Below the pieces are notes generated by a model. It was given only the letters and a program-made list of their open reading frames with translations, had not been told where the DNA came from and made no database searches. Positions 24,401 through 49,285 of a DNA stretch of 64,000 bases are shown piece after piece. A program made the position numbers and the translations under genes. Source of the DNA: Methanosarcina barkeri 3 (lineage in GTDB: Archaea; Halobacteriota; Methanosarcinia; Methanosarcinales; Methanosarcinaceae); NCBI RefSeq assembly GCF_000970305.1, contig NZ_CP009517.1:2604001-2668000 (forward strand). Reading direction: 5' to 3'. How positions within the stretch are numbered: the first letter of the stretch is position 1; each line of letters begins with the position of its first letter.

Positions 24401-25888
24401 ATGGCAAAAAATAACGCAGTTGCTGGATTTAATTCACTTAATGGCGTAGAATTAAACCTTTTTACTACTGATGAACTTAAGGCAATTCACTATGCAACCA
24501 TGGAAGTTCTGATGAACCCGGGCATTCAGGTTTCTGATCCCGAAGCAAGGCAGATCTTCAAAGAAAATGGCTGTGAAGTCGACGAGAAGACTAACGTTGT
24601 AAAAATCCCTGAATATCTCGTAAGAAAAGCTCTTCAGTTTGCACCCTCCAGATTTGTCCTCTGGGGCCGTGACAAAAAATTCAACACTGTTCAGGAATGT
24701 GGCGGTAAAGTACACTGGACATGTTTCGGTACCGGTGTAAAGGTTTGCAAGTATCAGGACGGCAAGTATGTAACTGTTGACTCCGTCGAAAAAGACATTG
24801 CAGACATTGCAAAACTCTGTGACTGGGCCGAAAACATTGACTACTTCTCTCTTCCGGTCTCTGCCAGGGACATTGCAGGCCAGGGTGCACAGGACGTCCA
24901 CGAGACTCTCACTCCGCTTGCAGGCACCTCAAAACACTACCACCACATTGACCCTGTTGGCGAAAACGTCGAGTACTACTGGGACATCGTAAAAGCCTAC
25001 TATGGTGGCAACGAAGAAGAAGCCAGGAAGAAACCAATCTTCTCTATGCTCGTCTGTCCAACCAGTCCACTCGAACTCAGTGTAAATGCCTGCCAGGTCA
25101 TCATTAAAGGTGCACGCTTCGGAATACCGGTTAATGTCCTGAGTATGGCAATGTCCGGTGGCTCTTCTCCTGTTTACCTTGCAGGAACTCTTGTAACCCA
25201 CAATGCTGAAGTCCTTTCCGGAATTGTGCTTGCCCAGCTGACAGTGCCTGGGTCCAAGGTATGGTATGGAAGTTCCACAACTACCTTCGACCTGAAGAAA
25301 GGTACTGCTCCTGTCGGATCTCCCGAACTCGGTCTCATAAGCGCTGCGGTTGCAAAACTTGCCCAGTTCTATGGTTTACCCTCCTATGTGGCAGGTTCCT
25401 AGTCTGATGCCAAGGTCCCAGACGACCAGGCTGGTCACGAAAAGACCATAACAACCCTTCTACCTGCTCTTTCTGGTGCCAACACCATATACGGAGCCGG
25501 GATGCTTGAGCTCGGAATGACGTTCTCGATGGAACAGCTTGTTATTGACAATGATATATTCAGTATGGTCAAGAAAGCCATGCACGGAATCCCTGTCTCA
25601 GAAGAAACCCTCGCAGTCGAATCTATCCAGAAAGTAGGCATCGGAAACAATTTCCTGGCCCTTAAACAGACCAGGCAACTTGTGGATTACCCGTCTAATC
25701 CAATGCTCTTTGACAGGCGCATGTTTGGAGACTGGGCTGCAGCAGGTTCAAAGGACCTTGCAACAGTTGCACACGAAAAAGTCGTGGACGTTCTTAAAAA
25801 TCACCAGGTAACCCCAATCGATGCAGACATTCTCAAAGACATGCAGGCAATCGTGGACAAGGCTGACAAAGCCTTCAGAGGCATGTAA
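24401..25888 (+). CDS. mttB: Trimethylamine methyltransferase MttB (pyrrolysine protein)
   Basis: 495 residues when the in-frame TAG at 25400-25402 (codon 334) is read as pyrrolysine. The frame continues without a break ([18 protein letters not shown]) to TAA at 25886-25888, giving exactly the family length. MttB moves a methyl group from trimethylamine to the corrinoid of MttC, with the Pyl residue in the active site of a TIM barrel. GGAGG precedes the ATG. It lies between its operon mates mtbC and mttC. A caller without code 15 would split it in two. Confidence 0.97.
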
Positions 25889-28517: not shown

Positions 28518-29921
28518 ATGGCAACTGAATACGCTTTGAGAATGGGAGACGGAAAACGTGTCTTCCTTACCAAAGAGAAAATAATGGCTGAGATCGAGGC
28601 CGGAACTGCTAATGCTGCCGACCTTGGTGAGATCTCTGCCCTCAGCGCCGATGAAATTGACAAGCTTGCAGAAATTCTTATGATGCCAGGCAAGGCTGTA
28701 AGTGTCGAGCAGGGCATGGAGATTCCCGTAACGCACGACATCGGCACTATAAGGCTTGACGGTGACCAGGGTAACAGTGGTGTCGGTATTCCTTCCAGCC
28801 GCCTGGTTGGCTGCATGACGCACGAGCGTGCTTTCGGTGCCGATACAATGGAACTCGGACACATCGATTACAGTTTTAAGCCTGTAAAACCTGTCGTATC
28901 AAACGAGTGCCAGGCAATGGAAGTCTGCCAGCAGAACATGATCATCCCATTGTTTTACGGCGCAATGCCAAATATGGGACTGTATTATACCCCTGATGGA
29001 CCATTTGAGAATCCCGGCGACCTTATGAAAGCTTTCAAGATTCAGGAAGCCTGGGAATCAATGGAACACGCTGCCGAACACCTTACAAGAGACACAGTAT
29101 GGGTTATGCAAAAACTCTTTGCCTCTGGGGCAGACGGTGTTAATTTTGACACAACCGGTGCAGCAGGAGACGCTGACATGTATGGTACTCTCCACGCAAT
29201 CGAAGCCCTCAGGAAGGAATTCCCTGACATGTACATCGAAGCAGGCATGGCAGGAGAATGCGTACTCGGTATGCACGGAAACCTTCAGTACGATGGCGTT
29301 ACCCTTGCAGGGCTGTGGCCTCACCAGCAGGCTCCACTTATTGCAAAGGCAGGAGCAAACGTTTTCGGGCCAGTATGCAACACCAATACCAGCAAAACTT
29401 CAGCCTGGAACCTTGCCCGTGCAGTTACCTTCATGAAGGCAGCTGTCGAAGCCTCTCCGATTCCCTGTCACGTTGACATGGGCATGGGCGTTGGCGGAAT
29501 TCCTATGCTTGAGACTCCTCCTATTGATGCGGTTACAAGGGCCAGCAAGGCAATGGTAGAAATTGCAGGCGTAGACGGCATATAGATCGGGGTCGGCGAC
29601 CCATTGGGTATGCCGATCGCACACATAATGGCTTCAGGTATGACTGGAATAAGGGCTGCAGGAGACCTTGTCGCAAGAATGGAGTTCTCAAAGAATATGC
29701 GCATAGGCGAGGCAAAAGAATACGTGGCAAAGAAGCTAGGGGTCGACAAGATGGACCTCGTAGACGAGCATGTTATGCGCGAGCTGCGTGAAGAACTTGA
29801 TATTGGAGTAGTAACTTCAGTACCAGGTGCTGCAAAAGGTATTGCTGCAAAGATGAATATTGAAAAGTTGCTCGATATTAAGATTAATTCCTGCAACACT
29901 TTCAGAAAGCAGATAGCTTAA
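28518..29921 (+). CDS. mtbB: Dimethylamine methyltransferase MtbB (pyrrolysine protein)
   Basis: 467 residues when the TAG at 29583-29585 (codon 356) is read as pyrrolysine. The flanks GVDGI and [18 protein letters not shown] are in frame, and the total equals the family length. It methylates MtbC from dimethylamine, releasing monomethylamine. AAAGGAG precedes the ATG. It ends the operon; a structured, T-rich region follows. Confidence 0.97.
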
Positions 29922-40221: not shown

Positions 40222-40545
40222 ATTTATTAGATGATTTTAAACTTATTAATACTTAATTTAATTTTTTAAAATATATAAAAAACACTACTTGAAGATCGAA
40301 ATTGGCTTCTTTTATCAGAACTTTCAGCCTGGTTTTTGCTTCAAGGAAATAATTAGAGAAGTTCAGGGTAGAACTATTATAAGTTAAAGGTAAAACTGTC
40401 ATAAGTTAAGGGTAGAACTATCAGAAATTCAGAGTAGAATTATTAAAAATTCAGAGTAGAATTATTAAAAATTCAGAGTAGAATTATTAAAAATTCAGAG
40501 TAGAATTATTAAAAATTCAGAGTAGAATTATTCTTACCAGAGTTT
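40222..40545. repeat. Intergenic region with 22-base tandem repeat
   Basis: 40417-40533 has five near-identical units of ATTCAGAGTAGAATTATTAA followed by AA. It lies directly after the pcm stop. No gene. Confidence 0.85.
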
Positions 40546-41896: not shown

Positions 41897-42288
41897 GATA
41901 CTAAATACTTAACTTCTCCGGCGACATTTTCCCAGGAGATAAATTTTTTAATATTTTCTGGTTCTTTTTGAATTTTAAAAGAATGATAAAAAACAGGATA
42001 GAACGTCATCCGAGTTTATTAAACTCTTCTCCTTATTTCAGAAACAGCGATCTATCCGAATTTTCATCAATACAAAAACAGGAACTAATATATTGCCTTT
42101 GAATATCATTTCAAACTGATATATTGATTATTTTGTTTCCTTTTTCTATTAGAAAGAGTTTGTTTAATAAAAGTGACTACTCCCACAACTGAAGTTGCGA
42201 GCATCCTGTTTAAAGGTCTTGAAAATACATATTGAGGAAGTGCACACAGACGAAGGATTCTGAGGTGAGTGATTAAAGTGTGAAGATA
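41897..42288. other. Intergenic region, nothing recognised
   Basis: AT-rich sequence between minus-strand genes. No open frame with coding character, no clear repeat. Confidence 0.5.
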
Positions 42289-42567
42289 TTAAGGAAAAAT
42301 TAAATCGTTATTTCTTTTTTGTGATTCATTAAATTCCTCAATTAATTTGTCCTGCTTTTCTCTGTATATACTCAATTCTTCACTGATTTTTTTCTTTTCA
42401 TCTTCAAGATTTGAGGAAAATAGTAAACTCATGTCATATATCATCATTAAAAAACTTGAAAAGAGCAAATAAATTTTTCTTATGATTCTTTGAAGTCTTA
42501 GAGTATACACGTGGTGAGTGATGCATTCTAACCAGTTTTCAAAACTCACTCTGCGAATTCTCACCAC
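42289..42567 (-). CDS. Possible small coiled-coil protein
   Basis: 92 codons. The first half is basic and hydrophobic; the second (LEDEKKKISEELSIYREKQDK) is a heptad-like coiled coil. There is no clear ribosome site and no recognised family. It lies 18 bases after the secreted protein gene on the same strand and may be chance. Confidence 0.3.
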   Translation of the reverse strand: MVRIRRVSFENWLECITHHVYTLRLQRIIRKIYLLFSSFLMMIYDMSLLFSSNLEDEKKKISEELSIYREKQDKLIEEFNESQKRNNDLIFP

Positions 42568-42585
42568 GCAAGTACACTTATATCA

Positions 42586-43632
42586 TTATAAACGGTTGAT
42601 GACCGACAATAGTAAAATCCCTAAAATAACCATTATTGAAGTAAATCCAGAAGTTTGGTTGGTTGTCCCATTAATTTTTTGTTTTGTTTTATTATCTTTA
42701 ATTGTAAGATTTCCATCTTTGTTGATATCGGTCTCATTTTTGCTTAGATCTATATAATTTCCGTCTTTGTCTTTGATAGCAACAGTTTCGTCATCTACGT
42801 CTGATTCATTGGCTGGTGCTAAGTCATCCGTTATGCGTATGAAAGTAAAAACTACAGGTACATCACTGATGCCTTTCTTTTTAAAGTGCTCATCTATTAC
42901 TTGATATATTTCATCAATTACTGATTCATTCACTTTCTCTGCAGTGGATTCCTCGAAACCTACTATTAAATATCCATGTATGTCGGCTCCAAAACTATTA
43001 ACTGGGCCGCCGAATCTAGTCAAATATGGATTAATTCCTGCAGGTCTAGAACTAGAACGACTATACTCAGTAAGTAAATCTACCCATTCACTTTTTTCTT
43101 CTTCCTGGTGAATTTCAGGCATTGTCCCTCGAGCAGTTATAAATCCTGGAAACAACTTTTTAGCTTCTTCAAAAGATTCAGGACCATAATCTGATAACGA
43201 AAGATCTTCTTTGACTTGTGCCCACATAAAGACCACAGGTATGTCACTTATACCCTCTTGCTGTTCGCAATAATTAGTAATATTTTGATAGATATTGTTA
43301 ATTCTGGAATCATTGATTTCTTCTTTATACGCAGGACTTAATTCAATTATTATTATTTTATTGTTGGTGGCAACGCTATCTATAGAGTTGTCAAGCTCTG
43401 AATATAATGGTCCCATAAGGGTGAGATTTAGCCAGCAATTAGCAATTGAATTTTCCCACGCTTGGTCAACTGTTTCAGGTAAGATTCCTCTGTATGCTAT
43501 GAATGAGGAGTCATTTGCAAGTTCTTGTATAGAAGGATCAGAGAGTCCATTATATTTAGAATCATTCAATTTACTATCACCTGCGCTTACAGAACAGGAT
43601 AATGATGCGCAAAGAAATAACATAAGTATCAA
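42586..43632 (-). CDS. Secreted two-domain protein, paralogue of the neighbour
   Basis: At least 348 residues. Signal peptide (ILMLFLCASLSCSVSAG); two copies of an alpha/beta domain, each ending GISDIPVVF or GISDVPVVF (about 165 and 265); a C-terminal hydrophobic tail after TSGF (SIMVILGILLLSVINRL) that resembles a sorting signal. The TTG at 43632 gives a signal without the usual basic start. The frame continues upstream (KKSKTGKILTLKL) without ATG, GTG or TTG. Family unknown. It is related to the protein at 44328-45443. Confidence 0.7.
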   Translation of the reverse strand: MILMLFLCASLSCSVSAGDSKLNDSKYNGLSDPSIQELANDSSFIAYRGILPETVDQAWENSIANCWLNLTLMGPLYSELDNSIDSVATNNKIIIIELSPAYKEEINDSRINNIYQNITNYCEQQEGISDIPVVFMWAQVKEDLSLSDYGPESFEEAKKLFPGFITARGTMPEIHQEEEKSEWVDLLTEYSRSSSRPAGINPYLTRFGGPVNSFGADIHGYLIVGFEESTAEKVNESVIDEIYQVIDEHFKKKGISDVPVVFTFIRITDDLAPANESDVDDETVAIKDKDGNYIDLSKNETDINKDGNLTIKDNKTKQKINGTTNQTSGFTSIMVILGILLLSVINRL

Positions 43633-44327
43633 TAATTTAAGCGTTAAGATTTTGCCAGTTTTGCTTTTCTTAAGTATGATATCAACCCCAAGTTATGTTT
43701 TATCCAAACTCTACGGCGACTAATTATTATATAATGAGACAAGCAATAATAAAGTATATCCATAAGTTTTTGACTTATTTTTGCTTTTGGAGAGACTTCA
43801 TCTTATGTTAGCATGCAAATGATTGCATCCACTACTCAGTTTATTCAATATAGTTAAATTAAAACCTTAACTCAACTTTTCACGTGAAAATCAACTAAAT
43901 AATTCATTCTTCATATTAATGGGTTCAAATCTTAACTTGTTCTGTTAGATCTCGACAATGATTAATAGAAAAATTTGGAATTTATTTCGAATTTCCTGTT
44001 GGAAACCGAAAATATGAAAGTCTTATTTAAGTGAAACAATAATAAATATAGACTTTTTTGCCTATATATTGTTTAATTCTGACTATACTGGTGTAATCAA
44101 TTAAAGAGTTTGAAGGACGAGAACTTAACATTATTGTGCATGCACCTGAATAAATTGCTTTAACCTAGGAAATCTAAAAAATTAGATTTGGTGTTTTGTT
44201 GAGGTTGACGGGCTGTATCCCACCATTAAACTGACGGCGATTAGCCCTTCTTTTTCCTCAAGAGACTGAAAACAAACAAGCAAAAAGACATTATGCCATT
44301 CAGCTGTCTGGCAATCAAAGTCCTGTA
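43633..44327. other. Intergenic region carrying conserved element copy 1
   Basis: Contains the ~233-base element at 44017-44249 and short AT-rich flanks. No gene seen. Confidence 0.7.
44017..44249 (+). ncRNA. Conserved noncoding element, copy 1 (candidate RNA)
   Basis: About 85-90% identical over ~233 bases to 45707-45940, though neither encodes a protein. Shared parts on the plus strand: a TATA-like CCTATATATTG (44061), the palindrome GTGCATGCAC (about 44136), an AAATCTAA/TTAGATTT hairpin (44170-44189) and a closing hairpin GGGCT/AGCCC with ATC/GAT (44210-44247), then TTCTTTTT. This reads as promoter, ~160-base RNA and terminator. Strand is inferred. Family not recognised. Confidence 0.5.
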
Positions 44328-45443
44328 TTACTTCTTCCTGAACTTCCATCCACCATACAGGCAGATAAAGTTTCCTAATAATCCAAAACCCGGAGTAACT
44401 TTCTTATCACTCGATTTATTTCCATTTGAGTTAGTGGTTAAATTTCCGTTTGAGTTAGTGGTTAAATTTCCATTTGAGTTAGTGGTTAAATTTCCGTTTG
44501 AGTTCGTGGTTAAATTTCCATTTGAATTCGCTATTACATCAGTATAGTTTCCCACACTTTGAAAAGCAACAGGGACATCGGTCACATTTAGTTTTCTTGC
44601 TTCTCCATCAATTATTGGATAAATTTCTTTAGAAATAGTCATCTTTTCTTCACTTGATATATTTTCGGGAATCCCAACTTGCAGCCTAGTTAACTCTAAT
44701 CCAAATGATCTAAGCTGACCTTTATCCATATATGCATCTATTTTTTCACCAACGCGCTTATAAACCAAATCCAATTTATTCGCCCATACATTGTACTCAT
44801 TCTCATCTTTAAACAGAGGAATAGTTCCATAATTTGCAATATCTCCACCTTTGTAGATGGGTTCATGTCTTTGTTTCATGTACTCTTCGATAAAATATAT
44901 TTTCGATTCAGAAAGGTCCTTTACATCTGGGCTTAGTGGAACATCCGCCTTAAAATAAGTACCATACCCGAACTCTACAGGGATATCCTGTATGCCCATC
45001 TCTTTTGCAGAATTATCAATTAAAGAGTATATCTCATTCATCAACGATTTATCAACATTACCATATTTGAATAAAATCACAAAGTATCCCTTTGCATTAG
45101 CTCCACATGTTACTACCTGCCCATGAGGATACATGTATTTAGAGGCAATAGTACCTTTTATTTTATTACTAAGTTCTTCAAGAGTAGAGTTCCAGCTTTT
45201 CTTTTGTTCCACAGTTTCCAGTACAGGAAGTTTGCCATATCTGGTAATTACGGTGTTTCCGTACGAGTTTAAGCCCCAAAATTCGTGATAATAGTCAAAA
45301 TTTACATTGCTCACTTCAGAATCCAAATAATCACCCGACTGGAATGATTTATTATCAGTTGAATTTATTCCGAAAGCAGTACCTGTAGAACAACAAAAAA
45401 TCAAAATAACTGATAATATGAAGAGAATTTCTCGCATTGCCAT
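44328..45443 (-). CDS. Secreted protein with PGF-type sorting tail and NSNGNLTT repeats
   Basis: 371 residues from ATG 45443, which follows GGAAGGT. Signal peptide (ILFILSVILIFCCSTGTAFG). Two alpha/beta domains end MGIQDIPVEF and LNVTDVPVAF, as in the neighbouring paralogue. Then five tandem eight-residue repeats NSNGNLTT, each with an N-glycosylation sequon. The C-terminus is TPGFGLLGNF, a short hydrophobic run and WKFRKK, a PGF-type archaeosortase signal. It is probably anchored to the cell surface. A frame extension to 45491 exists but lacks a ribosome site. Confidence 0.8.
   Translation of the reverse strand: MAMREILFILSVILIFCCSTGTAFGINSTDNKSFQSGDYLDSEVSNVNFDYYHEFWGLNSYGNTVITRYGKLPVLETVEQKKSWNSTLEELSNKIKGTIASKYMYPHGQVVTCGANAKGYFVILFKYGNVDKSLMNEIYSLIDNSAKEMGIQDIPVEFGYGTYFKADVPLSPDVKDLSESKIYFIEEYMKQRHEPIYKGGDIANYGTIPLFKDENEYNVWANKLDLVYKRVGEKIDAYMDKGQLRSFGLELTRLQVGIPENISSEEKMTISKEIYPIIDGEARKLNVTDVPVAFQSVGNYTDVIANSNGNLTTNSNGNLTTNSNGNLTTNSNGNLTTNSNGNKSSDKKVTPGFGLLGNFICLYGGWKFRKK
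44427..44545 (-). repeat. 24-base tandem repeat within the surface-protein gene
   Basis: About five units of GAGTTAGTGGTTAAATTTCC (plus-strand reading, 24-base period) encode NSNGNLTT. Units differ by few bases, so copy number may vary between strains. Confidence 0.9.
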
Positions 45444-45491
45444 ATAAACCTTCCAAAGCAAGTATAGAGTTCGTATGAACCGGGAAAGCAC

Positions 45492-46189
45492 ATTTGAACT
45501 CCATAAACTTCTCTTTCTTAACTCCTTATAAGTTTTATGTCCACCCTCTCTAACAATGCAATTTTCAAGCGGATTTTGAGTCTGGATTAATTTCCAATAT
45601 TTTTATTGTTTAATGATTTGGCCATGAATTATTTATTTGAGTATTATGCCTTAATTCATATTCAAAAATGAGTATAAAATAAAAAATTACTCAATCTTAA
45701 TGTATTAAAGTCTTATTTAAGTCAGTAAATGATAAATATAGACTTTTTTGCCTATAGATTGTTTAATTTTGACTATATTGGTGTAATCAATTAAAGAGTT
45801 CGAAGGACGAGAATTTACCGTTATTGTGCATGCACCTGAGTAAAATTGCTTTAACCTAGAAAATCTAAAAATTTAGATTTGGTGTTTTGTTGAGGTTGAC
45901 GGGCTGTATCCCACCATTAAAATAACGGGGATTAGCCCTTATTGTTATTAAAATTTTATTGTTTTGCATGATTTGAAAATGGAACTGGAAACCAGAGAAT
46001 AGTAAAAAGTTTCTAAAACCATCAGTATTAACCTCCCTGAGAAAGATATTGTATATTAGCTCAAAGCTTTAGAAATTTTTTGTATTTTATATATTGAAAG
46101 GTCATTAAAATACACAAACAAAAGGTAGATACAGAATTATAACGCTTAACTATATTAATATATACTACAATTATCTTGGGTGTGATAAT
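45492..46189. other. Intergenic region carrying conserved element copy 2
   Basis: Contains the element at 45707-45940 and the promoter of the gene at 46190 (TTAATATATACTAC about 25-35 bases before its ATG). Confidence 0.6.
45707..45940 (+). ncRNA. Conserved noncoding element, copy 2 (candidate RNA)
   Basis: Partner of 44017-44249. The hairpin at 45861-45880 is AAATCTAAA/TTTAGATTT. The terminal hairpin has more pairs here (GGGCT..ATCCC with GGGAT..AGCCC). The TATA-like box has changed to CCTATAGATTG. It stands ~260 bases before the start of the surface-protein gene, as copy 1 stands ~390 before its paralogue. Confidence 0.5.
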
Positions 46190-48941: not shown

Positions 48942-49285
48942 AAATTCGTCTTCCGCTTTTCTTCAGTTTACTTTTTCATTTTACTTTCTTTATCTTAGTT
49001 TTTTCATTCTAGTTTTTCACACTACTTTTCACACTACTTTTCACATTACTTTCACACTACTTTCACACTACTTTCACACTACTTTTTCATACTACTTTTT
49101 TTCTTGTCTTATTTTTACCCTTTTTTTAAAAGGCAGAATTTTATATAAAAATAAATCAGTATATCATTGATAGCTTCTTGATAGTCTTCAACCAAATTAA
49201 TTCTCTCAGGATTGATATTCGTAATTGTTTTATTATCCGCCGCCTGTTTTCCGGCTTCGCACATTCGATGTAGGGAGTCAGATTT
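48942..49285. repeat. Intergenic region with 12-base tandem repeat
   Basis: 49013-49100 repeats ACTTTCACACTACTTTTCAC-type units about eight times. The rest is AT-rich leader to the CDF gene. Confidence 0.75.

Follow-up and report, generated by a model that had tools for sequence, protein, structure and literature searches.

Positions 42166 to 45946 of the window, that is, of the 64,000-nucleotide stretch of the Methanosarcina barkeri 3 genome analysed here, most probably constitute an IS605-derived insertion that carries genes for secreted proteins, in which two similar noncoding copies are left ends of the element together with DNA upstream of a promoter, and in which the leader family found next to them serves as a translational switch (we put the probability of this reading at about 0.75). 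The reading draws support from sequence in several respects: the IS605 ends, the empty site in a relative, the distribution of the leader, its co-varying helices and the position of a short ORF within it.

The two copies had been described, from sequence alone, as ca 233-bp noncoding repeats beside strongly diverged protein genes, and in both points the description is borne out. The direct repeats are 91% identical across 243-244 bp, and the proteins encoded by the adjoining genes 1 and 2, paralogous and secreted, share 29% amino-acid identity, such that the contrast in conservation between copies and coding DNA is real. Likewise, the motifs GTGCATGCAC, AAATCTAA/TTAGATTT and GGGCT/AGCCC are all present in both copies. 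The edges originally given to the block (44017-44249 and 45707-45940) are a different matter, since in copy 2 the homology extends past 45707 towards the gene, through the putative promoter and the leader, to about 45463 on the minus strand, and the same is true of most relatives; in copy 1 alone it ends at 44013, with the leader absent. Therefore, what the sequence-only reading had before it was the upstream half of a promoter-and-leader region, seen on the strand opposite to the mRNA. Matches to the 240-bp element, full or partial, number 11 in the source genome and occur in 22 of 31 Methanosarcina genomes, and most of the full copies, when aligned in gene sense (minus strand), precede a gene whose product is a signal-peptide or membrane protein. 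Searches of plasmid and phage collections with the element gave no match. The coordinates of all features are collected in the table.

Features of the insertion, in window coordinates
Feature	Coordinates	Strand	Basis
Whole insertion, missing from relative G003	42166..45946	-	empty site: flanks match to 42165 and from 45947
IS200/IS605 right end, GATGCTCGCAACTTCAGTTGTGGGAGTAGTCAC	42173..42205	-	matches right ends of intact relatives and of other units
Gene 1, secreted or membrane protein, start codon uncertain	42586..43632	-	ORF; 29% identical to gene 2
Copy 1: IS605 left end and upstream block, leader lost	44013..44255	-	repeat alignment
IS605 left-end palindrome, copy 1	44197..44249	-	match to intact elements
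Gene 2, signal-peptide protein with 24-bp repeats coding for (NLTTNSNG)n	44328..45443	-	ORF
R1 match: TATA-like CTTATAA, then P1; short ORF and Shine-Dalgarno hairpin lost	45408..45537	-	73.1 bits, E 2.3e-10
Leader hairpin P1	45463..45505	-	alignment, helix analysis
Conserved DNA linking the putative promoter to the block first described	45538..45706	-	alignment with relatives
Copy 2: IS605 left end and upstream block	45703..45946	-	repeat alignment
Decayed gene tail KEFEGREFTVIVHAPE*, which includes GTGCATGCAC	45793..45843	+	resembles C-terminus of L008 ORF
IS605 left-end palindrome, copy 2	45888..45941	-	match to intact elements

When read on the minus strand, which is that of the genes, each copy opens with an IS200/IS605 left-end palindrome, and it is this palindrome that had been noticed as the GGGCT/AGCCC hairpin. 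In other Methanosarcina genomes, IS200/IS605 elements have the same palindrome (AAGGGCTAATCCCCG..GGGATACAGCCCGTCAAC) immediately ahead of tnpA or tnpB, and the TnpB of elements sharing this left end scores 342 bits against the TnpB model. A right end lies on the same strand as the left ends, beyond gene 1, and resembles that of intact Methanosarcina IS200/IS605 elements (GATGCCC..GGGAG(T/C)AGTCAC); with up to two mismatches, the motif has only two occurrences in the 4.56 Mb of the source genome. The source genome also contains a tiny IS605 relic (G000:C1:61200-61340, L240), in which a partial left end is fused to a TnpB tail and a right end and which immediately follows a leader-family gene. 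This right end, at 61 kb, had been considered as a further cargo unit, an idea that was rejected on inspection; together with a right end at G028:C536, it looks like part of a left-end/right-end relic just downstream of a gene.

The outer limits of the insertion are given by the syntenic locus of the relative G003, whose flanks meet with only 7 bp unaligned between them; therefore, the intervening window DNA is an insertion. The empty site adjoins TTTTA and no duplication is seen, which is the pattern of IS200/IS605 members, inserted 3' of a short target without duplicating it. The locus is flanked by what we take, from reading of the ORFs, to be a protein-isoaspartate-methyltransferase-like gene on one side and a pyridoxamine-oxidase-like gene on the other. 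At the orthologous site of G026 and G028 the order is left end, leader, gene 2, C-terminal half of TnpB (residues ~193-366 of 373) and right end; G004 has a right end and gene 1 there, with neither 240-bp block, and the window combines both genes with two left ends. Similar units exist elsewhere. In G003, a unit at 1.69 Mb opens with left end and leader and closes with a right end; between them, the gene runs in frame into the TnpB tail. G004 and G012 have units at rps10, made up of left end, leader, gene and right end with shorter TnpB remnants, and the flanks of that locus are nearly contiguous in G014 and G018.

Neither tnpA nor tnpB is present in the window. The insertion would be an IS605-end-bounded, transposase-less derivative in which secreted-protein genes have taken the place of tnpA and most of tnpB, and which was presumably moved by TnpA acting in trans. 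The doubling of the left end and its upstream block would reflect the two gene units that stand in tandem at the site today. The insertion appears to have been rearranged since, and its cargo may have entered either before or after the landing of the element. No intact TnpA element with the left end of the copies was detected in the source genome, and hence any present mobility is putative.

The sequence-only reading had proposed that the block is a functional RNA or control element, with a transcript of ~160 nt, and had counted against itself either the joint lack of a transcript on both strands and of copies elsewhere or copies bounded by terminal repeats, as in a transposable remnant. The remnant is largely what the matching right end and the empty site point to, the ends of IS605 being terminal palindromes rather than terminal repeats. 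On sequence grounds, then, the copies are an IS200/IS605 left end plus DNA upstream of a putative promoter and not a free-standing RNA gene. The conservation of the palindromes, one of them with a compensating change (AAATCCAA/TTGGATTT in some copies), does speak for an RNA, but the palindromes fold on either strand, the final hairpin is the IS605 end, the plus strand bears a decayed gene tail and the orientation of the block is tied to minus-strand genes. Moreover, the Rfam scan of the window found no family at the element, and between 43700 and 46200 the best score was 19.4 bits (to the sRNA162 model), outside the block. An RNA encoded by the block itself is, in our view, highly improbable. 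What survives of the proposal is that the DNA is conserved, for a reason other than coding, upstream of paralogous secreted-protein genes, with a likely control RNA nearby. A palindrome-associated mobile repeat (PATE) of 240 bp that moved beside gene 1 alone would explain why the homology of copy 1 is confined to 44013-44255 and why the DNA upstream of gene 1 beyond 44013 is unrelated to the leader, yet no IS605 right end is found at the gene-side edge, and in copy 2 and most relatives the homology passes that edge, making such a repeat improbable. A 240-bp PATE with AAAGTC..GACTTT as its right end was rejected, since the right end of intact relatives differs and conservation runs through that edge.

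Plain tandem duplication has more in its favour, although we still regard it as unlikely. Here, a gene, its upstream DNA and an old IS605 relic would have been copied by recombination, the flanking ends being present since relics are common nearby. Indeed, secreted-protein genes do form tandem arrays, two other genes are followed by left-end/right-end relics, and the copies at this site have been reshuffled between strains. Against duplication alone stand the agreement of the empty site with the outer right and left ends, the rarity of the right-end motif in the source genome, and the order left end, gene, TnpB tail, right end common to three loci. These features favour the IS605-derived insertion.

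The plus-strand tail KEFEGREFTVIVHAPE* resembles the C-terminus of a ~100-aa ORF at L008 1228-1557, which lies in L008 near an integrase-like ORF; this ORF has four matches in the source genome (166-206 kb), three of them further to that in L008.

The leader itself was followed with a covariance model of the gene-proximal region (R1). It occurs in 27 of the 31 Methanosarcina genomes, with up to 27 copies per genome and 19 in the source genome, and, with fewer copies, in 8 of the 14 genera sampled in the family. Its copies precede secreted-protein genes; among seven downstream genes tested, one Peptidase_C39_2 and one Peptidase_M10 scored above the Pfam cut-off, with matches to Zn-dependent phospholipase C and serine protease below it. 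Neither gene 1 nor gene 2 of the window has a match in Pfam or NCBIfam. Gene 2 has a 24-bp tandem repeat at 44418-44525, by which NLTTNSNG is repeated near the C-terminus. No Rfam family matches the leader at its own cut-off. Many leaders outside the barkeri-type clade are without an IS605 end, from which it follows that the leader is older than its association with IS605. Two divergent copies lie just outside the window in the source genome (G000:C1:2673480-2673610 and 2674474-2674616, L241), and in the second of these the P1 stem is wholly exchanged for GUGAACUUCAAA/UUUGAAGUUCAC.

The anatomy of the leader was drawn from 76 distinct copies. In its 5' part a typical leader has the TATA-like CTTATAA, the hairpin P1 (UAUGGAGUUC..GAACUCCAUA) and then GCCCUAAGAGGCAG; in its 3' part come a short ORF, CUGCCUCCU and an AGGAG just before the start codon. 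P1 is formed in 94% of cells, against 30-45% for an out-of-register slid structure, a test inflated by relatedness of the sequences. A CCUCCU/AGGAG helix of at least 6 bp, placed before the start codon such that it would sequester the Shine-Dalgarno (SD) sequence, is found in 80% of copies versus 18% of shuffles (kinship again inflating the comparison); its inner pairs co-vary, and distant copies have CCUUUUG/CAAAAGG and CCUCG/CGAGG instead. The helix GAGGCAG/CUGCCUC, with which it is mutually exclusive, has weaker support: 2 in 1000 shuffles reach the observed level, compared with 0 in 1000 for the SD helix, both figures being inflated by relatedness. It is nevertheless the predicted minimum for one typical leader (z -6). 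Of the 52 copies with the short ORF (MLALRIFKLA*, MLALSVFKA* or M[IF]SCANI*), 46 have its stop 4-15 nt upstream of the anti-SD strand, and this spacing recurs across different frames. Changes in the ORF are partly synonymous in pattern (TTA/TTG, CGA/CGT/AGG/AGA, AAG/AAA), which suggests that it is translated. The candidate uORF1 (MEF...) was rejected as a conserved peptide, its length ranging from 3 to 49 aa.

From these features the leader appears to be a translational switch for secreted-protein genes, responding to some putative signal. With P1 at the 5' end of the mRNA, the CCUCCU..AGGAG helix would hide the SD sequence in the off state, and in the on state the competing GAGGCAG/CUGCCUC helix would free it; alternatively, ribosomes that end the short ORF MLALRIFKLA* 4-15 nt upstream could do so. 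Copy 2 of the window retains promoter and P1 and has lost the switch half, including the SD-sequestering helix, and gene 2 is therefore probably no longer switched. In leaders of L068, L071 and L072, TGATCCTGCC stands immediately before the anti-SD strand; it resembles the conserved 5' end of archaeal 16S rRNA, a resemblance that may be chance.

A further relation concerns sRNA162 (RF02792; PMC3510493), an antisense RNA of a single locus that is duplicated in M. mazei. Its first 65 nt in M. mazei are antisense to the 184-nt UTR of MM2442, which holds two small ORFs (PMC3510493). The Rfam sRNA162 model matches the antisense strand of several leaders (loci L060-L086), with up to 51.9 bits (L075, E 2.4e-6), against 19.4 bits in the window; no same-strand score in the leaders exceeds the 78-bit gathering cut-off. 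Reciprocally, of 12 sRNA162 loci searched, 11 are hit by R1 on the antisense strand; each match is weak (E 0.0015-0.2), and all lie at equivalent positions. Taken with the overlap at the MM2442 UTR, these reciprocal antisense matches imply that MM2442 appears to bear a divergent leader of the family. In other words, sRNA162, which shares homology with the complementary strand of the leaders, appears to lie antisense to a divergent member of the family, and the overlapped 5' UTR looks like such a member with its small ORFs; the leaders differ from sRNA162 in being sense mRNA leaders, in many copies, that score under the RF02792 cut-off. If the mapped MM2442 start is carried over to the family alignment, a typical leader would start at or just before P1. 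A trans-regulon of sRNA162 across all leaders was rejected on duplex energies, which were not significant in the source genome and only modest in G008.

Among known systems, the leader most resembles in outline the erm-type leader-peptide attenuators, in which a short ORF precedes alternative helices that conceal or expose the SD sequence. It differs in being archaeal and in standing in many copies before secreted-protein genes, and any inducer or ribosome stalling would be putative here. To our knowledge, translational switches are scarce in archaea. With regard to the mobile part, the PATEs of haloarchaea are IS605-related, palindrome-bounded elements that lack a transposase and are described as too short to encode one (PMC3119063). 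The insertion has near-terminal palindromes at both ends and no visible target duplication, as do IS200/IS605 elements and PATEs; like PATEs, it is without a transposase gene, and a TnpB remnant is present in some copies. The difference is that its secreted-protein genes are full-length and come with a promoter and leader of their own. The 5' UTRs of slmA1 S-layer genes of Methanosarcina, conserved, structured, 154-159 nt long and of unknown role, are by description also similar in standing upstream of a surface-protein gene (PMC3361143).

The leader beside the two-copy block belongs to a previously unnamed, many-copy family of mRNA leaders, and in the open-access literature searched, outside which most subscription journals lie, no paper on the family or on the cargo arrangement was found. 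Up to 27 such leaders per genome before secreted-protein genes, some of them with matches to the cysteine peptidase and matrixin families, would amount to a regulon whose signal could then be tested; through the antisense relation, sRNA162, an archaeal sRNA that has already been studied, would be accounted for as the opposite strand of a single family member; and an IS605 unit with host genes and their own leader would show a route for the spreading of regulated surface genes. The combination of all three, namely that a bistable leader controls a Methanosarcina secretome regulon, that an IS200/IS605 derivative spreads it as cargo with its genes and that its opposite strand gave rise to sRNA162, is put forward tentatively, at a little short of even odds.

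Elsewhere in the window, positions 25400-25499 and 29583-29682 hold the pyrrolysine insertion sequences of mttB and mtbB (Rfam PYLIS_3 and PYLIS_2, well above cut-off), and two intergenic arrays are present, one of a 22-bp tandem repeat with ~8 units (40359-40532) and the other of the 11-bp repeat TTTCACACTAC (49000-49100).
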